In this document: positions 11,943 through 21,378 of the stretch, piece after piece
Layout of the letters: every line of letters begins with the position of its first letter
How positions within the stretch are numbered: position 1 is the first letter of the stretch
Virus record (IMG/VR): IMGVR_UViG_3300032296_000307
Location: 1 to 24,426 of that record
Source: a virus
Reading direction: 5' to 3' (one strand)
DNA: 24,426 bases
Position numbers and translations under genes: made by a program
Notes under the pieces: generated by a model
What the model was told of the DNA's origin: nothing
The model's input: the letters and a program-made list of their open reading frames with translations, nothing else
Database searches by the model: none

Positions 11943-11945
11943 TGG

Positions 11946-12125
11946 TTAGTCTTCCTGCGTTGCGCGGCGGCGCTTGCTGCCTGCCGACATTTCGTTAACG
12001 GGCGCCACTACAGGGGCGTCAGGGTAAAAGCGTTCCCAACCAAACTCTTCGTCGCTGCGCGCTTCCTCTTCTGAGATAGCAACTTTTGCGCCGTGGACAT
12101 CGTGAACAAGGTAGATAACCGCCAT
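11946..12125 (-). CDS. 59-aa capsid-proximal protein, unknown function
   Basis: Found by reading the gap after the gp4-like gene. It begins MAVIYLVHDVHGAKVAIS and is acidic in the middle (EEEARSDEEFGWERFYPDAP), ending in a basic tail (SKRRRATQED). I recognise the MAVIYLxHxxHGxKVA opening from small proteins beside the head-tail adaptor gene of many environmental podophages; no function is known to me. The start has GGAG at a good distance (TACGGAGTTTTT then ATG). Conserved position next to the adaptor suggests a head-tail junction or assembly role. Confidence 0.78.
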   Translation of the reverse strand: MAVIYLVHDVHGAKVAISEEEARSDEEFGWERFYPDAPVVAPVNEMSAGSKRRRATQED

Positions 12126-12136
12126 AAAAACTCCGT

Positions 12137-12161
12137 AAAATGGACGGCCCGAAAGCCGCCC
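12137..12161 (-). terminator. weak terminator-like hairpin after the 94-aa gene
   Basis: On the - strand GGGCGGC pairs with GCCGTCC (7 bp including one G-U) around a 6-base loop (12142-12161), followed after two bases by TTTT (12137-12140). It lies between the 94-aa and 59-aa genes. The short U-run suggests partial termination or attenuation. Confidence 0.45.
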
Positions 12162-12168
12162 AGATTAA

Positions 12169-12923: not shown

Positions 12924-12954
12924 AAAAAGTTTGGCCTCCGGCGAACCGGAGGCC
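12924..12954 (-). terminator. strong intrinsic terminator after the coat gene
   Basis: On the - strand GGCCTCCGG, loop TTCG, CCGGAGGCC: a perfect 9-bp stem with a UUCG tetraloop (12933-12954), then AAAC and TTTTT (12924-12928). It starts 10 bases past the coat stop codon. This is the clearest terminator in the window; leakiness would set the coat to tail-gene ratio. Confidence 0.85.
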
Positions 12955-12963
12955 GTGATTAAA

Positions 12964-14172
12964 TTAGCCCCACATCCGGACGGCCATTTGCGGACGGATC
13001 GTGCTGTAGCCATACAGAACGTCAATACGGCAAGGCATACGGTCGTTGTTGATGTCGTACTGACGAACAACGCGAAGCGAGATGCCGTTGTGTACCTGAC
13101 GCGAAGCCATGTCTACGCCCTGTGGGAGCAGAAGGTCGGCGGTTGCGAAGGTGATAGCATCCTTGTGGTATACGAGGTTCTGCGCGTACTGCGACGACGC
13201 TGCACCGACGAACACAACAGCCTTGCTGGTAGCAGGCAGAGCGTTGACGGTAGCAAGTGCGTGGTTAGCCGAGTACATCGGTGCAACAGTGATGCTGCCT
13301 GCGCCAGAGCCGTTGAGCAAGACATCAGCCAATGCAACGAACTGGAACAACGAACCTGTGCTTTCACGCGTCTGTGGGTTAACTGCATAGCAGTCAGCTA
13401 CAGTGAACACGTCGCCAGCCTTGACGGTGTCGTTGGCACCAGCGCCGGTGATGGCGATGGTTGTCGCGCCTTCCGACGTGACAGCAGCCGAAGTCGAACC
13501 GCCGGTTGCGTCGCGCGAACCAGTGGTGAACTGCTTGATGGACTGGGACATATTGATTTCGTCGAAACCAAGTACGCCAGTACCCATCATGCCGTTCTTG
13601 AACTGCTTGCTGATGGTGTCGGTTGGGTTGAACAAGCCCTTCATGCCTTCGACCAAGCCAGCGTTTGCGGCTGGGTTGACAGTGGCATAACGTGGCGACA
13701 TTACAGCAGCGTTTTCGTTCAGCTTCTGCTGTGCAGCAAGAAGAACAGCCGAAGTAGCTGGCGTAGTGCCGGGCGTGCCGACCGAGTTACCGATGGTTGC
13801 GTATGCGTTTGCAACGTCAGCGTCGATGCTGGAAGCAAGCTGCGAGATACGTGGCTTGAGAACGCGCTCTGCGAAATCGTCCAACTGCATGGTCAATTCA
13901 GCGGTCGTGAAGTTGACGCCGATGTGCTTCTGGTTGGCAACGGTCAGCGTTGTGAACTGTTCGTTGTCGTCCTGTACCTGAAGGGCTGCACCGTCGGTGA
14001 CAAGCGCACGGTCTGGAAGACGGATACGCAGAGTTGAGCCGATCTTGGCGCCTTCAACAGCAAAGCTGTCGTCGTACTGGCGGTTTACGTTACGTGTAAG
14101 CACGAGGTTGTTCTCAAGGATTTCGAGAGCCTTCCGCGTGATCATATCAATTGTTAAAATGCTATTGGACAT
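12964..14172 (-). CDS. major capsid (coat) protein, P22 coat type
   Basis: 402 aa (P22 coat is 430 aa). The N-terminal third is diagnostic for the P22 coat family: ILTIDMITRKALEILENN, RNVNRQYDDSFAVEGAKIG, LQVQDDNEQFTTLTV and FTTAELTMQLDDFAERVLKP. The C-terminus (VLYGYSTIRPQMAVRMWG) closes the HK97-type core. A Gly/Thr/Ala-rich segment (about 220-250) is likely the inserted beta domain. It builds the icosahedral shell around scaffold and portal. Ribosome binding site AGGGAATACCCC before the ATG, 14 bases after the scaffold stop, and a strong terminator behind it fit a highly expressed gene. Confidence 0.93.
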   Translation of the reverse strand: MSNSILTIDMITRKALEILENNLVLTRNVNRQYDDSFAVEGAKIGSTLRIRLPDRALVTDGAALQVQDDNEQFTTLTVANQKHIGVNFTTAELTMQLDDFAERVLKPRISQLASSIDADVANAYATIGNSVGTPGTTPATSAVLLAAQQKLNENAAVMSPRYATVNPAANAGLVEGMKGLFNPTDTISKQFKNGMMGTGVLGFDEINMSQSIKQFTTGSRDATGGSTSAAVTSEGATTIAITGAGANDTVKAGDVFTVADCYAVNPQTRESTGSLFQFVALADVLLNGSGAGSITVAPMYSANHALATVNALPATSKAVVFVGAASSQYAQNLVYHKDAITFATADLLLPQGVDMASRQVHNGISLRVVRQYDINNDRMPCRIDVLYGYSTIRPQMAVRMWG

Positions 14173-14186
14173 GGGGTATTCCCTAT

Positions 14187-14978
14187 TTAACGGTTACGTT
14201 GTGCCTCGAACTTCTTGATCTGTCTCAGCCGTTCTGCTTCGATCCATTCCGACGTACTCATCGACTTGGTCGAGCGAGGGTCGGTTGTATCGTACTGGCT
14301 GGTGCCAGTAGAACGTGCAGTGACAGGTGCAATCGGTGCCGGGGCGGTTGAAGTTTTCTTAACCGGCGGATTAGAAGCCAATCCGGCCTCAATTTTTCCG
14401 ATTTCCTTTGCTTGCAAGATCGGGTTCAAGCGAGAAATGCGATCAGCTTCTTTGGGGTTGGTGCCTAACCAATAAAGCAGGTCAGGGCCAACGTCCGAAG
14501 ACTGTATGCTTTGTGCCATGTATTCCGTGACAGGCAGGTTAGGATTGTAGGCGACTTGGTCGAAGTCGTCATATCTATCCCGCGCCGTTTCTTCACGGTC
14601 ATGGTACTGCTCAAGCAATGCCTGCTGTTCTTTAGCGGTTGCCCGCCGTTCCAGCAACACTTCCGCTTTATGCTCTGCCAAGGCATCGGCATAATCTTCG
14701 TAAGTGTCAAACTGCTCAGGAGTCAGATCGGTTGGCGCTTGCGCCGGTTGCCGAGACTGTGCTTCTGACAGCTTCTGTGCTTGCTCTCGTTCCCACTTGC
14801 GTTGTTCTCTCGCAAGTCGCTTGCCTACAATCGCGTCCAGTTCTTCTTGTGAGAAGGTCTTAGATGCTTCCTGTTCAGCAGGCGTTTCCGGCGTCGTGTT
14901 TTCTACAGGCTCGATTGCTGCCGTGGCTTCGAGTTCTGGCGCGGAGGCATCCGCTTCAATAGGAACATTATCGTCCAT
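14187..14978 (-). CDS. scaffolding protein
   Basis: 263 aa, hydrophilic and mostly helical. The acidic Ala/Glu/Pro/Thr-rich N-terminus is followed by FSQEELDAIVGKRLAREQRK, a motif typical of scaffold proteins in P22-like and other podophages, then Gln/Glu/Arg-rich coiled coil (AEHKAEVLLERRATAKEQQ) and a basic C-terminal helix (EAERLRQIKKFEAQRNR). A basic helix-turn-helix C-terminus is the coat-binding part of P22 scaffold (303 aa). It directs procapsid assembly and is then released. Lies immediately before the coat gene, as in P22. Its leader (14979-15063) is the longest gap in the array and contains two hairpins. Confidence 0.88.
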   Translation of the reverse strand: MDDNVPIEADASAPELEATAAIEPVENTTPETPAEQEASKTFSQEELDAIVGKRLAREQRKWEREQAQKLSEAQSRQPAQAPTDLTPEQFDTYEDYADALAEHKAEVLLERRATAKEQQALLEQYHDREETARDRYDDFDQVAYNPNLPVTEYMAQSIQSSDVGPDLLYWLGTNPKEADRISRLNPILQAKEIGKIEAGLASNPPVKKTSTAPAPIAPVTARSTGTSQYDTTDPRSTKSMSTSEWIEAERLRQIKKFEAQRNR

Positions 14979-14998
14979 GTTTAACCCTTAAAGAGTTC

Positions 14999-15015
14999 CT
15001 GATGAGCCGCATCAG
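14999..15015 (-). other. small hairpin in the scaffold leader
   Basis: CTGATG (14999-15004) and CATCAG (15010-15015) form a 6-bp stem with a 5-base loop, about 20 bases before the scaffold ATG. The likely Shine-Dalgarno AAGGG lies between the hairpin and the ATG, so folding here could affect translation initiation. Confidence 0.5.
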
Positions 15016-15027
15016 TACGGTTGTAGG

Positions 15028-15055
15028 CCAGACTACATCATTTGATGCAGTCTGG
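15028..15055 (-). other. 12-bp hairpin in the scaffold leader
   Basis: On the - strand CCAGACTGCATC and GATGTAGTCTGG pair over 12 positions, one of them G-U, with an AAAT tetraloop. It starts 8 bases after the stop of the 90-aa gene. No U-run follows (CCTACAACC), so it is not a normal terminator. It could be an RNA processing site, a 3'-end stabiliser or a protein-binding operator. Confidence 0.7.
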
Positions 15056-15063
15056 CAATATCG

Positions 15064-15336
15064 TTAAACTTCTGCTTCTGGCAGTGCTGCCGGCGCGTTC
15101 TTGGCTTGCTCTGCGGCATACGCAGCTACCACTTCGGCAGTGTGCGTTGCGGCGCAGACAGCCTGCACGCGGGCGTCTTCGGCGCTGTAGTCATCGCCGG
15201 GGGCAACAACGTGACGGCTGAAAGTGCCGCTGATTTGTTCTCCGTCTTCAAGGATGGCAGTCTTGACGCGCACTTGCACAACGCCGCTTTCAAGGACTTC
15301 AATCTTATCAACCACTACGTTTTTCTCTAAAGCCAT
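15064..15336 (-). CDS. 90-aa conserved small phage protein, unknown function
   Basis: Begins MALEKNVVVDKIEVLESG and has VQVRVKTAILEDGEQISGTF, then HVVAPGDDYSAEDARVQA and an Ala-rich helix. I recognise this type from many tailed phages, where it commonly lies beside tail fibre genes; its function is not known to me. A beta-rich N-terminal half is followed by an Ala-rich C-terminus (VVAAYAAEQAKNAPAALP). Start supported by AGGAGAAAGAAA before the ATG. It closes the receptor-binding cassette and precedes the scaffold leader. Confidence 0.82.
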   Translation of the reverse strand: MALEKNVVVDKIEVLESGVVQVRVKTAILEDGEQISGTFSRHVVAPGDDYSAEDARVQAVCAATHTAEVVAAYAAEQAKNAPAALPEAEV

Positions 15337-15381
15337 TTTCTTTCTCCTGTTTCCAGCCCAGCTATCCCGCCAGACATTAGG

Positions 15382-17226
15382 TTATTGAATAGTGTGTAAT
15401 CTAAAAATTTCAGTGCCAGCAAAGTTTGTTCCGTTTCCAGAACGCACAATTACGTTAGGCACTGACAGCGTTGTGTAAATGCCATTGGCTGCAAGAAATG
15501 TTGCAGCAGCTTGGTTGGCAGCGGTGACAACAACATAAGCGTTAGACGCTACGTTTAACGTGGCGCTGGGAACAGTATAGGCTGCGGTGGCTGCGCCCAT
15601 CGTTGCGTCTGCTACAATGTCTGTGCCGTTATAGCTGTTGCCTTCACCGAATGACGTGGCGCTAATTGAGCCAATGCCGACAGTGGCTGATCCTTCAATG
15701 CGGTTGTAACGGTATTTGTTGCTGGTTGCGTTAGTCTCAACAATGCCTTGCGCCGTCACAAACAACTGATTGTTGTTGACATTGGAATTTTGCATATATG
15801 AAGATACAATTCCAATTCGCGTATTGGTCACGATATTATTGCTGATAGAGGCTTCTTGAGCCAATATGCCGCCGCCGTCAGCGTCTAGTCGAATAGATGC
15901 CGTTGCCGTGGACACTTGTGCAGCAGTCCATGTTATAGACCCATCAACAACCGTTGCACCTGATGAAGTAGGCCATGCAGGCTCACTCCCGCCAGAAGTC
16001 CCGCCAGAAGACGTGCCATAGTAGAAACCGTTTGGTGTTGTCGGTTTTACCGACGCAACCCCATACGCCGTTCCTGAAGCCCAAGTAGGGATATTGGCAA
16101 TCGGATCAGTCGGAGCAAAACCGTCAAGCACGTTTCCAGTTATCTGGATTTGCTTTGATACGCCGAACGAAGCGTTAACGTAAATGCCGTCAGTAACATA
16201 TATGCCGGCCAAATTACCGCAAAACGCAGTGTTGTTGCGGATGGTGGTTTGGTCAAAGTCGCTGGTAGCACCAAAAACAGCGATGGCTCCCTGACCGCAA
16301 TTCAAAAATGTGTTGCCAGAAATGTCGTTGTAACCACCAAAGCGGCAAGCTGCGCCGCCGCCGTAATTTGAGAAGTTATTGGTGATCTTGTTGTTTGCGC
16401 CATCGCAACGGTAAACAACGCCAACAGTCCCTGTTTGGTTTGTGCCGGGGATTGTAGACGTATTACCGATGACGCTGTTGCCGTTTATTATATTGTTGTT
16501 GCCATTCAAATAGGCCAACTTTTCGTATGGCTTCTCAGCGATGTTTCCTTCGACAATGGAGTCGTTTCCATCACTAAAGAAAATGCACTGGACGTACATA
16601 CCGCCGCCAGCACTAGGAACAAAGTGGTTATTACTAATGATGTGACGGTCGCCATCACTGACACGCACACCGAAATAGGCCGTGTCCGTATATGTCGTAG
16701 GGCCGCCGGTAAAAGTGTTGTTGATGATTTTGCCGTTGTTCGACCCGACTAAATGTACCCCTACTTTAAACGGAGTATCTACAGTCAGGCCATCTAAAAC
16801 AAAATAGTCGCCTGTGACGCGCATGAGACTAGGCAGCGTAGCGTCGGTTCCCGTGTTGACCGAATTGGTTGTGCCATCGCCCTTCAACCCACCATTGCCA
16901 GTAAACTTTACGTTATCAGCAGTGACGTAAAAAATCGTCGGTGGGTTGGCTTGGATTGCTCCAAAAGTAGCCTTTACAAAACCGTCAAGGACGACGGTCA
17001 TGCTTTTGTTAATTTCAATGGCTGTTGACAGGCCGCCGCTAGTGTTGATTTCATAGTCTAACGCGCTGGTTGGCAAATACAACGTACCGCCTTCAGGTGT
17101 AGCTGCAACTGCTGTTTTGAACGCTGCAAGGTTGGCTGCTGCGCTGGCGCTCGACGAAACACCATAGTCGCCTGCGTTCACCGCTGCGTCTTGGATCATC
17201 GAGTAAGTTACTTTGGTCAGCGACAT
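15382..17226 (-). CDS. beta-helix tailspike-like protein with inserted carbohydrate-binding-like domain
   Basis: 614 aa. Repeated Asn/Gly turns such as NNGKIINNTFTGG, IVEGNIAEKP, NNNIINGNSVIGN, NKITNNFSNY and ASISNNIVTNTR show a right-handed parallel beta-helix of the pectate-lyase type. The N-terminal cap resembles pectate lyase 3 proteins (DYGV...AFKTAVAATPEGGTLYLP). At about 379-436 a separate module interrupts the helix (TWASGTAYGVASVKPTTPNG, then SGGSEPAWPTSSGATVVDG and SITWTA). This Trp-rich pattern recurs in phage tail proteins and is probably a small beta carbohydrate-binding unit. No P22-type head-binding domain is present. It likely binds or cleaves host polysaccharide. Ribosome binding site AGGAACCGCC before the ATG. 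Confidence 0.85.
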   Translation of the reverse strand: MSLTKVTYSMIQDAAVNAGDYGVSSSASAAANLAAFKTAVAATPEGGTLYLPTSALDYEINTSGGLSTAIEINKSMTVVLDGFVKATFGAIQANPPTIFYVTADNVKFTGNGGLKGDGTTNSVNTGTDATLPSLMRVTGDYFVLDGLTVDTPFKVGVHLVGSNNGKIINNTFTGGPTTYTDTAYFGVRVSDGDRHIISNNHFVPSAGGGMYVQCIFFSDGNDSIVEGNIAEKPYEKLAYLNGNNNIINGNSVIGNTSTIPGTNQTGTVGVVYRCDGANNKITNNFSNYGGGAACRFGGYNDISGNTFLNCGQGAIAVFGATSDFDQTTIRNNTAFCGNLAGIYVTDGIYVNASFGVSKQIQITGNVLDGFAPTDPIANIPTWASGTAYGVASVKPTTPNGFYYGTSSGGTSGGSEPAWPTSSGATVVDGSITWTAAQVSTATASIRLDADGGGILAQEASISNNIVTNTRIGIVSSYMQNSNVNNNQLFVTAQGIVETNATSNKYRYNRIEGSATVGIGSISATSFGEGNSYNGTDIVADATMGAATAAYTVPSATLNVASNAYVVVTAANQAAATFLAANGIYTTLSVPNVIVRSGNGTNFAGTEIFRLHTIQ

Positions 17227-17235
17227 GGCGGTTCC

Positions 17236-18150
17236 TTAGACTAGGTAAGTCATGGCAAAATATATGGTGGAAACGGCAGGGCTTGTGTTACCGTAAACCG
17301 TCGCACCAGAAATTGCGGTAATTGCCCCCGAAGAATTGAGGCTGCTTGAGTTCATGGAGCCGCAAGCAGGGCCTGCAATTGCGTAGGGAATGTTCGTAAA
17401 TATAATTCCGGGGCCAGCTAGTGCGATTGAACCTGCGCCTGACAAAGTTCCGGTGATAGTTACTTGATTGCCTACGCGGGTATATCTTCCAGTAGAACTG
17501 AAATCGCCGACTACGGTAAGGCCACTACCTTGGTTTGGCGTCCAAGTGCCTTCCTCATAGTCATTCAGCAATTCGCTGGTCATGCCAGCCGCGTGCGTGT
17601 TTGCGCTGAAGTCGATGCCTTTGCCAGCAGTGCCGATTACGAGGTTGCCAGTAGAAACAGTTGCATTACCAGAAACATCTATGACAAATCGAGCAGCGTT
17701 TGCTGTGCCTAGCGCCAGCGTATTATCCGCAGATCGGTATACAAAAGCATCCGCGCTAGGCGCGGAAATATTTGCGCCGGGGATGAACGCACCTGTTATA
17801 GTGACGTTTCCGCGGACAATAGCTGCGCCTTCTACATCAATTTTTGCGCCGGGGTTATTTCGCCCAAAACCAACTTGGTCGGTGCTTGCGTCGCAATAAA
17901 TAAGGTTATCGTCGGTGTCACCACTTACGTTAAAATCCAAATCAGCTTTAGCTGAGTTGAAACGGAACGTGCCGCCATTAAAATTAATATTCCCGGTCGA
18001 TGTTAGTGCGCCAGTGGAAACGGCTTTACCTGTAGTCAAATTATCTACCGACACTTTTACAGTGTTGCCGCCTTGCACAATAGGCAGGACTTCAGTTCCC
18101 GCTAAAGGGGTGGTCGCGCCAGTTAAAGCAGAAATCTTTTTATCAGCCAT
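17236..18150 (-). CDS. tail fibre-like protein
   Basis: 304 aa. The opening MADKKISALTGATTPLAGTE and VLPIVQGGNTVKVSVDNL is a known start of phage tail fibre or tail-associated proteins. The middle is made of beta repeats (GNINFNGGTFRFNSAKADLD; NATVSTGNLVIGTAGKGI). ELLNDYEEGTWTP (193-205) marks the C-terminal domain, a signature seen at the ends of many phage fibres, followed by beta strands likely to form a trimeric tip. Start supported by AAAGGATTAAATT. It lies between two beta-helix proteins and may be a linker or second receptor-binding protein. Attachment to the virion is not evident from sequence. Confidence 0.82.
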   Translation of the reverse strand: MADKKISALTGATTPLAGTEVLPIVQGGNTVKVSVDNLTTGKAVSTGALTSTGNINFNGGTFRFNSAKADLDFNVSGDTDDNLIYCDASTDQVGFGRNNPGAKIDVEGAAIVRGNVTITGAFIPGANISAPSADAFVYRSADNTLALGTANAARFVIDVSGNATVSTGNLVIGTAGKGIDFSANTHAAGMTSELLNDYEEGTWTPNQGSGLTVVGDFSSTGRYTRVGNQVTITGTLSGAGSIALAGPGIIFTNIPYAIAGPACGSMNSSSLNSSGAITAISGATVYGNTSPAVSTIYFAMTYLV

Positions 18151-18161
18151 AATTTAATCCT

Positions 18162-20531
18162 TTATGCTTCAGCAGCGCCAAAACGCTTCCATGTTCCGGG
18201 AGAGCCGCCAGTTATGCAAACAGTGCCTGTATACCCGCCGGCAGCCGTACCAGATGAATAGAATATTCTGTCGTTTGCGACCCAAGTACCGTTCGGGGGT
18301 GTAGTGCCAGCAGAAAGAAAGGCACTTCCGGCCAACCATTGACGAACCAAAATACTATTCACGGGGTCATAAGCGGATGCAAAGGGTACAATTTTCTGGC
18401 CTGTGTAAGCCGTACCCGCAGAACCTGTGTACCGGTTTCCATTAAAAACATTTACGGCGGTGTATACGCCATCCGAAGCCATTACAAAGGCAAAACCGCC
18501 TGTTACAACTTCGCGGCAGACATTATCAATAACAGATACGTTGGTAGCGGCGTTTTCAACATAAATGCCTAGCGTCTGATAATCTTCAGTGCTGCTGCCC
18601 ACAAAGCAGTTTTTCACGATAATGTTTTTGCCGCCTGAAATTCTAATTCCAGTTTTTGTTGACCACGAACTCCAAACGCCGTTTCTTTGCGCTTGTACGC
18701 TGTCAAGGACAATGTCTTGAGTGGTTGCGTTATCTCGAACGCCGACGCCGTCGCGTTGATTATAGTAATAATTTCCACGTAAAATATTTACGTTTTGGCT
18801 GGTTTCGTCGATGTACAACCCATAGTTATGGTTGGTGACGTTCGCGTCCTTAACGGTGACGCCATCGACAAAAAGCAGACGTATGCCGTCCTCATTAGTG
18901 TTTAGGCCTAAACCGTAAGTTGTAAATTGGTCTAAAGTTATGTCGGTTTGCATCAAAACGTCAAACATAGCTACATAGCCGCCAGAAACAGCCGCAGCTA
19001 CGTTATCTGCATATGCGTCAATATATGCCCCAAAAGAAGCAGAGTTAAACGCTTGAATATTTTTCGCGCTGTTTCCGCGGCACGCAAATGGTCGCACCGA
19101 CGTGGGCGCAAATTCAAACCCTACATCGCCGCCAGTATGATTGTACGCCGCATATGTAGTGCCTTGAACAGCTACGTTTTCGACTGTAATTCCGTAACAC
19201 GCGGACAATCTTACTGCGCGTGTACCTATGTCGGGCGCCGCTGATGGGTAAGATAGATTACCAACCGCAAGGTTACGGATGATTATGTTGTGAGGGTGCG
19301 TTGTAAATGCCGTACCAGCAAGATACGCAACTTTTGTAGCGGGTATGTCTGACGAATTTACAACGCCGACATTGCCCCAATCAAAATGTATGCCGCTGCA
19401 ATTAGCAGAACTAGGTATAACCACGTTTTCGATTATACCGTTATATATACCGCCGATACCCTGCAACACAGGGTTGTTGGCCCTAGTGGTGTGCAGCGTC
19501 ATGTTACGTACAAACCAGTTATTTGCGTATTGGTAATAGCCGGGGCTAGAGGGGGTAAACCCACCGTTATTTGGCTCACCGATTGAAATAGCTGCGTGGA
19601 ATATTTTTTGGCTGGATGGGGTCCCTGTTGAAATGGCGTTAAGTGTGCCATTCTCAATACCGGAATTGGTGCCAAGGCGGACGCCATAAACATTCCCGCT
19701 GCCAAGCGTCATGTTCCATGTAGCACCGCACATATCCACTTTTACGTTATCTTTAATAGCGGGCGCGGGGTTCATGGCGTATGTTTTGCCATTAACGCAC
19801 GTTAAATTACCGCCGCCGACTGAAACTAAATAATCTATAGCGTTTTGTATTGCTTGGTAATCGTTTGTTGAACCGTTTCCAATAGCGCCGAAATCTTTAA
19901 CCGAAACGTATTGAGATAATTTGGCCTCTACGTTGGTAATTGCGCCGTTGGTAAACGGCGGATCATAACTAACAATGGATGCGTCCACGGCGCCTGTGGT
20001 GCTTTGCACCGCCGTAGTAAACTTAACTTCCGCGCCGACGTGCAACCCTGACGTAAACGTCACGGTGTCGCTGTCTGTCTCCAGATAGCTGTCGCCAACA
20101 TACTGGTTTACGCCGTCGATGTAGACGGTCAGCGAGTTCGTGCCGGGCGTGTAGTTGATCGTCGAAAGGTTGAACACAGTCTGGCCGGCGGTGGCCGTGA
20201 TGACTTCTTCCTGCACCGTGTAGTTGACGAAGTTCGAGTTGACGCCAGTGATGTTATCGTAAGTGCCAAGCAGGATGCCTGTGGCTGTCTCGATGACAAA
20301 CTTATAGACCAGCCCGTCAGTCAGCCAAATCTCGCCGCCCGGTACGCGTCCTGCGCTATCCAATATGATAGGGTTGCTGTGAGGTGTAACGCCAGACGCG
20401 CTGGTGTACGTCGTCTGCGGCGTAGTCGTGCCGGCTGCGTAGGTGTAAATCTTGCCGCCCGACAGAATAACGCCGTTGTTATCAAAAAACTGCGCTGCAA
20501 AGCCGCCGATGGGTGAAGGGGTTACTGACAT
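18162..20531 (-). CDS. tailspike with P22-like head-binding domain and pectate-lyase beta-helix
   Basis: 789 aa (P22 gp9 is 666 aa). Residues about 10-100 match the P22 tailspike head-binding domain pattern (FFDNNGVILSGGKIYTYAAG, NPIILDSAGRVPGGEIWL). Residues about 105-175 form a second beta module common in phage fibres (TVYIDGVNQYVGDSYLETDS). VSVKDFGAIGNGSTNDYQAI (209-228) begins a pectate-lyase-3-type beta-helix that runs to about 700. The C-terminal about 50 residues (GTWVANDRIFYSSGTAAGG, SPGTWKRFGAAEA) are a small tip domain seen in other tail proteins. It likely attaches to the tail hub and recognises or degrades surface polysaccharide. No catalytic residues could be assigned. Confidence 0.88.
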   Translation of the reverse strand: MSVTPSPIGGFAAQFFDNNGVILSGGKIYTYAAGTTTPQTTYTSASGVTPHSNPIILDSAGRVPGGEIWLTDGLVYKFVIETATGILLGTYDNITGVNSNFVNYTVQEEVITATAGQTVFNLSTINYTPGTNSLTVYIDGVNQYVGDSYLETDSDTVTFTSGLHVGAEVKFTTAVQSTTGAVDASIVSYDPPFTNGAITNVEAKLSQYVSVKDFGAIGNGSTNDYQAIQNAIDYLVSVGGGNLTCVNGKTYAMNPAPAIKDNVKVDMCGATWNMTLGSGNVYGVRLGTNSGIENGTLNAISTGTPSSQKIFHAAISIGEPNNGGFTPSSPGYYQYANNWFVRNMTLHTTRANNPVLQGIGGIYNGIIENVVIPSSANCSGIHFDWGNVGVVNSSDIPATKVAYLAGTAFTTHPHNIIIRNLAVGNLSYPSAAPDIGTRAVRLSACYGITVENVAVQGTTYAAYNHTGGDVGFEFAPTSVRPFACRGNSAKNIQAFNSASFGAYIDAYADNVAAAVSGGYVAMFDVLMQTDITLDQFTTYGLGLNTNEDGIRLLFVDGVTVKDANVTNHNYGLYIDETSQNVNILRGNYYYNQRDGVGVRDNATTQDIVLDSVQAQRNGVWSSWSTKTGIRISGGKNIIVKNCFVGSSTEDYQTLGIYVENAATNVSVIDNVCREVVTGGFAFVMASDGVYTAVNVFNGNRYTGSAGTAYTGQKIVPFASAYDPVNSILVRQWLAGSAFLSAGTTPPNGTWVANDRIFYSSGTAAGGYTGTVCITGGSPGTWKRFGAAEA

Positions 20532-20535
20532 CTAA

Positions 20536-20697
20536 TTACTCCAGCAGCAACAAACCACCGTCCTCTTGGACGAGGTTGTCACCTATTTCAGTTAGCAGAT
20601 TGCCTTGCACGGTCGCGTCAGCGTAGCCAGACAGGAAGCTAATAATGCTTCCCAAGCCTAAAGCGATACCGTTACGGAGCGCGCCGCCAAAACCCAT
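20536..20697 (-). CDS. 53-aa protein before the tailspike gene, unknown function
   Basis: Found in the gap between the tailspike and the 101-aa gene. It begins MGFGGALRNGIALGLGSIIS, a short Gly-rich hydrophobic stretch, and ends NLVQEDGGLLLLE, a C-terminal pattern I associate with small proteins near podophage tail genes. No clear Shine-Dalgarno; the start follows the preceding stop by 3 bases (TGA TAG ATG), so it is probably coupled. Function unknown. Confidence 0.65.
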   Translation of the reverse strand: MGFGGALRNGIALGLGSIISFLSGYADATVQGNLLTEIGDNLVQEDGGLLLLE

Positions 20698-20700
20698 CTA

Positions 20701-21015: not shown

Positions 21016-21378
21016 TTATGCGAGAAATTTCAGTTTATACAGCGTGCTGTAATACAGGCCAAAAATCTCGTCGATAATGTTTTGGATTGGGGTGCAATCC
21101 TTATCGACGACTTTATACCGCATTTCCATCAGTTCGTCTACTTGACCTTCAAGAAACTCGACAATGTTGTTGGTTTTCTTAGCTGACATGAGCGAAATAG
21201 GCCCGATTAGGCCATATTTGCCCTGATAGGCTTCCGCAAATTTGTCCGCCAAGTCGATGATTTCGCTGTAAAACTTCCGCAACGCCTTATGCTTTGCGTA
21301 GCTGCGTGTGTTCAGATGCGTCGAGTGAGCCACATCACGCGCCAAAAACAGTGTTCCTACAAAATCAGCGCAACTCAT
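21016..21378 (-). CDS. 120-aa helical protein after the portal, conserved in environmental phages (DUF5856-like)
   Basis: Begins MSCADFVGTLFLARDVAHST and has RSYAKHKALRKFYSEIIDLA, then DKFAEAYQGKYGLIGPI. The spaced acidic and His residues in long helices (RDVAHSTHL; EIIDLADKFAE) recall a ferritin-like four-helix bundle, but metal binding is speculation. I recognise the pattern as a conserved protein of unknown function common in aquatic phages, often near structural genes. It overlaps the portal stop by one base (TAATG), so it is coupled to portal translation. Confidence 0.75.
   Translation of the reverse strand: MSCADFVGTLFLARDVAHSTHLNTRSYAKHKALRKFYSEIIDLADKFAEAYQGKYGLIGPISLMSAKKTNNIVEFLEGQVDELMEMRYKVVDKDCTPIQNIIDEIFGLYYSTLYKLKFLA

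Follow-up and report, generated by a model that had tools for sequence, protein, structure and literature searches.

The DNA analysed here, hereafter the window, is a stretch of 24,426 bases which covers the whole of its source record, and its late genes lie on the minus strand. Among them a phage head scaffold gene (14187-14978, minus strand; 263 aa, phrog_8865) stands beside a P22-type coat gene (12964-14172, minus strand; 402 aa, PF11651), and the terminator scan detected a terminator-like hairpin immediately 3' of the coat gene (12933-12954, minus strand); the annotation of P22 has a putative stem-loop at the corresponding place. Upstream of the scaffold gene, a gap of 85 nt (15063-14979, minus strand) separates it from a 90-aa ORF (15064-15336, phrog_6228). 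The initial annotation took this gap for the longest in the late array, which holds only if the small ORFs found inside two gaps of 226 nt and 169 nt (11943-12168 and 20532-20700, minus strand), which fall outside the 60-aa ORF list, are counted as genes. Directly after the portal gene lies a DUF5856/phrog_858 gene (21016-21378, minus strand) described as a 'starvation-inducible transcriptional regulator'; its product is a candidate late-gene regulator, and at the matching position DSL-LC05 encodes a 'DNA binding protein'.

The 85-nt leader folds as a whole at -35 kcal/mol vs -20.2 kcal/mol for its dinucleotide shuffles (z -4.9), and it beats 200 of 200 of them. A 6-bp stem had been noticed in it about 20 bases before the scaffold ATG, and this is correct: the stem, CUGAUG-CGGCU-CAUCAG (15015-15010 with 15004-14999, minus strand), ends exactly 20 nt ahead of the ATG. 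It is however one half of a larger fold. When the leaders of relatives are aligned side by side, the CCG upstream of this stem is seen to pair with the CGG at the start of its loop, which gives an H-type RNA pseudoknot, 5'-CCG-UA-CUGAUG-CGG-CU-CAUCAG-G (15020-14998, minus strand), occurring once in the window. Stem S1 thus consists of the 5' arm CCG (15018-15020) and the 3' arm CGG (15007-15009), the latter abutting the 5' arm of stem S2 (CUGAUG, 15010-15015), which pairs with the S2 3' arm CAUCAG (14999-15004); loop L1 is UA (15016-15017), and a G follows S2 at 14998. The general form of the element is an S1 of 3-5 bp, L1 = UA, an S2 of 6 bp, the S1 3' arm adjoining the S2 5' arm, and then 0-4 nt. 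An outer pairing of 7 bp between the upstream stop codon and GUUAAAC before the ATG was also considered and was rejected as a conserved feature because the upstream letters differ in the nearest relatives.

Relatives of the scaffold and coat proteins were collected from IMG/VR (80, 80, 13, 80 and 26 loci, three of these sets being the best 80) and from annotated phages. Together with loci from DNA-pattern scans, this gave 500 loci with the start codon placed and enough upstream DNA, and hence 311 distinct 70-nt leaders, 173 of which were obtained via protein similarity and are free of DNA-pattern bias. A pseudoknot template with L1 = UA fits 293 of the 311 (94%) vs 11% of 1,555 shuffled leaders, and at a stricter score 78% vs 2%. 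For the protein-derived leaders the template fits 155 of 173, and 18 are without a fit. Several unfitted leaders (L398, L504, L507, L510, L161 and L074) have related pseudoknots with a different linker, while low fits such as those of L404, L515, L445 and L418 may be chance, because 11% of the shuffled leaders reach the same threshold. A free pseudoknot search over all leaders is weak by itself, with 55% above its 5% null, and the template that requires UA separates leaders from shuffles far better. Of the 293 fitted leaders, 271 place the end of S2 18-24 nt before the start codon, and 289 have the G that follows S2, which is nearly invariant. This G and the UA of L1 are the only near-invariant letters outside the stems, with the proviso that the UA is invariant in the fitted set by construction, because the template demands it; exceptions such as CCA, A and GA occur.

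The stems themselves are kept by pairing and not by letters. Among 82 distinct elements (effective number 15), five S2 pairs (ranks 1, 2, 4, 5 and 8) and three S1 pairs (ranks 3, 6 and 7) fill the first eight places when 263 column pairs are ordered by corrected covariation. The remaining S2 pair, the fifth of that stem (U-A or C.A), takes rank 19, and support for a fourth S1 pair is weak (rank 62). In the fifth S2 pair (column 21 with column 11), 78 of 82 elements keep the A in the S2 3' arm; this near-invariance may reflect a tertiary contact or a C.A+ pair. S1 occurs as CCG/CGG, CTG/CAG, TCG/CGA, GCG/CGC, ACG/CGT, AACG/CGTT, AACC/GGTT, AGCT/AGCT, AAGC/GCTT, GGC/GCC and ATC/GAT, and S2 as CUGAUG/CAUCAG, CCAGUG/CACUGG, CCAAUG/CAUUGG, CCUGUG/CACAGG, CCAGUU/AACUGG, CUAGUU/AACUAG, CCCGUA/UACGGG and others. 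Over a tree of 133 scaffold proteins, the ten pairs together have undergone at least 99 Watson-Crick pair-type changes, a count of independent changes which recombination between leader and gene may inflate. Covariation measured on a fitted alignment leans to the fitted fold; a MAFFT alignment made from sequence only, which takes in the 60 distinct elements that are equally long, has pairing in 89% of its 600 cells vs 28-43% after the partners are shifted by 1-3 columns, with 119 cells altered on both sides vs 31.6 in shuffles. The 3' arm of S1 is thereby supported by covariation and by the MAFFT alignment, and that of S2 by the template fit as well. Since S1 and S2 cross each other and G-U pairs are tolerated, the conservation is that of folded RNA, not of a DNA dyad, and we regard the reality of the fold as practically certain. 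The compensating changes in related phages that had been proposed as a check on the leader are thus present in abundance for the smaller stem, and the lack of covariation that would have spoken against the idea was not observed there.

The pseudoknot is carried by Thalassomonas phage BA3, Shewanella phage X14, the Vibrio phages VvAW1, D478, 1.211.A and FGH and others, as well as by several uncultured podoviruses. The scaffolds of BA3, VvAW1 and the isolate cta1H496 are only 26%, 28% and 28% identical to that of the window, and all three have the pseudoknot, written in letters other than the window's. It is absent before the scaffold gene in P22, Xanthomonas phage PBR31, EBPR podovirus 1 and Rhodoferax phage P26218. 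A collection of bacterial genomes yielded one relative, a contig of an Oxalobacteraceae assembly, with both scaffold gene and element. In four Vibrio phages (1.211.A, 1.184.A, 41E34.2 and D478; L530, L532, L534 and L408) the scaffold gene is annotated to start 54 nt upstream of where its homologues do, inside or at the pseudoknot; these starts are probably misannotated.

The element is near-exclusively tied to scaffold genes. Three scans of IMG/VR with DNA patterns, blind to genes, gave at least 236 matches in two scans together and at least 120 in the third, and a scaffold homologue follows 230 of the 236 and 114 of the 120 copies listed (344 of 356 in total). Ten of the 12 listed copies with no scaffold gene downstream lie at contig ends. 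Under a strict definition the element is found in 145 of 271 protein-derived leaders and nowhere else on both strands of 1.30 Mb; one shuffled copy of this DNA, searched on one strand, contains none, which indicates that chance copies are rare at 1.30 Mb. The other two listed copies precede non-scaffold ORFs, in both cases behind tail genes, so that the scaffold gene is no absolute partner. One (L357:2042-2084, minus strand) stands before an 86-aa ORF with the Shine-Dalgarno hairpin described below kept, and the other (L314:7800-7840, minus strand) before lysis-type genes without that hairpin. The contig of the latter may be a prophage edge, because it holds an endolysin gene and an ORF which by eye resembles a chemotaxis receptor. 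These two copies, and the occurrence of the pseudoknot in phages that infect several proteobacterial hosts, speak for a rival reading, by which some protein other than scaffold binds the pseudoknot and governs the timing or the amount of capsid synthesis; it could come from the host (e.g. a ribosomal protein like S15) or from the phage. We hold this reading to be rather improbable; a general host factor would not predict the near-exclusive tie to scaffold genes.

The distribution of neighbouring genes also bears on a different kind of explanation. The block from the DUF5856 gene to the scaffold gene (15064-20700) holds beta-helix and tail-fibre-like genes and differs among relatives. These differences reach the 5' edge of the pseudoknot element, which suggests that host-recognition genes may be swapped at a boundary formed by this edge. 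One may ask whether the element is a boundary of cassette exchange, 25 nt conserved for recombination between the variable tail genes and the scaffold-coat block: similarity between leaders often starts at its 5' edge with the upstream genes differing, and the products of the tail genes in front of the two odd copies are similar to proteins from loci of the scaffold-leader family. However, homologous recombination needs identical letters, not compensatory change, so that such an origin of the conservation is very improbable, and a role as cassette boundary would be at most a side effect.

Downstream of the pseudoknot the window has a second hairpin, P3 (AACUCU-UUA-AGGGUU, 14983-14997, minus strand), which contains the Shine-Dalgarno sequence AAGGG (14985-14989). 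In the window's group 41 of 52 distinct tails have a P3 stem score of at least 4.5 vs 16% of shuffles, and the arms vary and yet pair (AACTC/GAGTT, GAATC/GATTC, GTTCC/GGAAC, GTTTC/GAAAC, GCTCA/TGAGC). P3 is likewise found in all nine tails of the BA3/X14 group vs a null of 32%, and in one of four of a small remainder of relatives. By the same stem-score test it appears in only one of 22 tails of a further group, group B, under the null of 16%, and P3 was therefore rejected as a universal part of the element; small hairpins of a different geometry are visible by eye in group B. The initial annotation had found the two stems of the leader and overlooked both the pseudoknot and P3.

Small H-type pseudoknots near the Shine-Dalgarno sequence are known from riboswitches of the preQ1 type, and a small-molecule riboswitch of similar size, with the Shine-Dalgarno hairpin downstream in part of the relatives, is a conceivable reading of the leader. 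We consider it most improbable. Hardly any unpaired letters besides UA are conserved, the conserved letters of an aptamer were not found, and the controlled gene encodes a structural protein. In this the scaffold-leader pseudoknot is unlike the preQ1-type riboswitches, having neither conserved ligand-pocket letters nor a match in Rfam: at the gathering threshold there was no match in the window or in nine relatives, and at a permissive threshold only weak matches at chance level, none of them meaningful in the leader.

Upstream of the pseudoknot, relatives show a -35-like peak 41 nt (z 7.6) and a -10-like peak 18 nt (z 6.7) upstream of L1, and 53 of 146 distinct upstream regions exceed a 5% promoter null. 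The promoter-like site is clearer in these relatives than in the window, where the corresponding putative hexamers TTGCCA (-35; 15053-15058, minus strand) and TAGTCT (-10; 15030-15035, minus strand), separated by a 17-nt spacer, form a weak match under the threshold of the promoter scan. From these positions we infer a transcription start at about 15024-15021, next to S1, since a start some 7 nt after the -10 hexamer would coincide with the 5' edge of S1; if the promoter is used in this way, the pseudoknot would form the 5' end of the mRNA.

The spacer of this promoter-like site is where the larger of the two noticed stems is centred. It had been described as a stem of 12 bp with an AAAT loop; the stem and the loop are there, though the length is 13 bp with one G-U pair included. 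This stem 1, GCCAGACTGCATC-AAAT-GATGTAGTCTGGC (15027-15056, minus strand; 15056-15044 with 15039-15027), has a folding energy of -22.6 kcal/mol alone and is specific to a subclade. Of 305 distinct upstream regions, counting those derived from the pattern scans, 68 have an inverted repeat above a 5% null. In 30 of these 68 the repeat is centred as in the window, 24 nt before L1, with both arms changing in step; in L388 an inverted repeat of up to 17 bp lies in the promoter spacer or nearby. Such spacer repeats, in the window (15027-15056) as in L388, are possible operators. As a terminator stem 1 was rejected, having no U-run after the stem and being unlisted by the terminator scan, in agreement with the earlier statement that it is no normal terminator, and nothing supports a further suggestion of an RNase III processing site. 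That stem 1 is the functional part of the leader, be it as terminator, processing site or operator, is quite unlikely: its 13-bp repeat and the repeats that share its centre speak for it, but most relatives retain the pseudoknot and lack stem 1, and for this stem covariation cannot separate a DNA dyad from an RNA hairpin. Moreover, since stem 1 overlaps the promoter-like site, it would be mostly missing from a transcript begun there. Any part it plays as operator or read-through hairpin may be confined to its subclade.

The terminator-like hairpin after the coat gene recurs in 107 of 242 distinct relatives vs a null of 7%, and with the promoter-like peaks upstream it makes scaffold and coat look like a separate unit. 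Taken with the free choice of stem letters and with promoter peaks that put the start no more than a few nt away from S1, this unit could also be read in another way, namely that the pseudoknot is a stabiliser at the mRNA 5' terminus, whose knotted end fends off decay of the RNase E/RppH type and secures a high output of capsid proteins with no ligand involved. We judge this unlikely, because any hairpin would suffice for it, yet the geometry, the UA, the A of the S2 3' arm and the G after S2 are kept across distant phages, and the distance from the pseudoknot to the start codon is tight.

We therefore come to the reading that we prefer, by which the scaffold mRNA has in its leader a cis-acting element made of the pseudoknot and, in most of the window's group, the Shine-Dalgarno hairpin. 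In many relatives a sigma70-like promoter just upstream would place the pseudoknot at the 5' end of a scaffold-coat mRNA, which would end at its own terminator-like hairpin. The element would most likely set the rate of scaffold translation: a protein bound to the unit of pseudoknot and hairpin would block ribosome entry, the likeliest such protein being free scaffold, so that scaffold synthesis would halt when scaffold stays unused in procapsids and would restart once assembly consumes it. Four features together point to a translational operator recognised by its shape, namely the near-exclusive link to scaffold genes, the position at the ribosome site, the presence of a Shine-Dalgarno hairpin and stems whose letters are free to vary. 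Judged from these features, the element probably controls scaffold translation. By analogy with P22, scaffold itself is a reasonable but tentative ligand, for which we would put the chance somewhat below even, and the full scheme, in which the pseudoknot is a translational operator, free scaffold shuts off its own synthesis and assembly gates translation, is to be held slightly more tentatively still. As the best explanation of the whole, a cis RNA element controlling scaffold translation with free scaffold as the likeliest ligand would be given an even chance.

The P22 scaffold limits its own synthesis, an autoregulation reportedly described by Wyckoff and Casjens in 1985, and it is for this reason that scaffold is a natural candidate for the ligand. 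The two cases concern the same gene in the same capsid family and share the expected logic by which scaffold supply is matched to assembly. The analogy with P22, already drawn in the initial annotation, is thus apt with respect to function and not to structure: in P22 the gap between portal and scaffold genes is 13 nt and has no pseudoknot, so that the autoregulatory site of P22 must lie elsewhere. Our search of the accessible literature found nothing on the mechanism of the P22 autoregulation. A structural likeness is found in gene 32 of phage T4: according to PMC3014915 and PMC535899, gp32 binds a pseudoknot in its own leader and represses its own translation, and in T4, T2 and RB69 this is an H-type leader pseudoknot upstream of the ribosome site with letters varying among relatives, as in the scaffold leaders. 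The products, gp32 and scaffold, are unrelated. The T4 pseudoknot lies 67 nt upstream; in the scaffold leaders the end of S2 is 18-24 nt from the start codon. T4 gene 32 needs A+U-rich UUAAA repeats downstream, in place of which the window's group has the Shine-Dalgarno hairpin; unstructured UUAAA repeats are absent there, and tails such as GGAATCTTAGGATTC..ATG form a hairpin instead. In addition, PMC3014915 mentions a pseudoknot in the autogenous translational operator of rpsO (ribosomal protein S15), a cellular gene, which is likened to the scaffold leader by this feature and not by sequence.

No description of such an element came out of literature searches that covered the regulation of the P22 scaffold, pseudoknots of phages and RNA motifs in phages, nor was one noted in passages of PMC8040213 and PMC2864571; most subscription papers were outside this search, so that this is no proof of absence. 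As to the structured regulatory leader envisaged from the start, its direction was right, and its emphasis was misplaced on the large subclade stem, whereas it is the small stem that matters. The idea of a regulatory, possibly scaffold-binding RNA is well founded, since stem 2 covaries, is linked to scaffold genes and lies beside the ribosome site.

How tailed phages match the supply of scaffold to capsid assembly has been a question ever since the autoregulation of P22 scaffold was described, and a compact leader RNA of about 45 nt together with one protein makes it directly testable. Even if scaffold is not the ligand, the element is an RNA family missing from Rfam 15. If the proposed scheme is true, the element would be a second viral pseudoknot in autogenous translational control, spread across hundreds of P22-like phages, and scaffold would recognise the shape of an RNA and not its letters.
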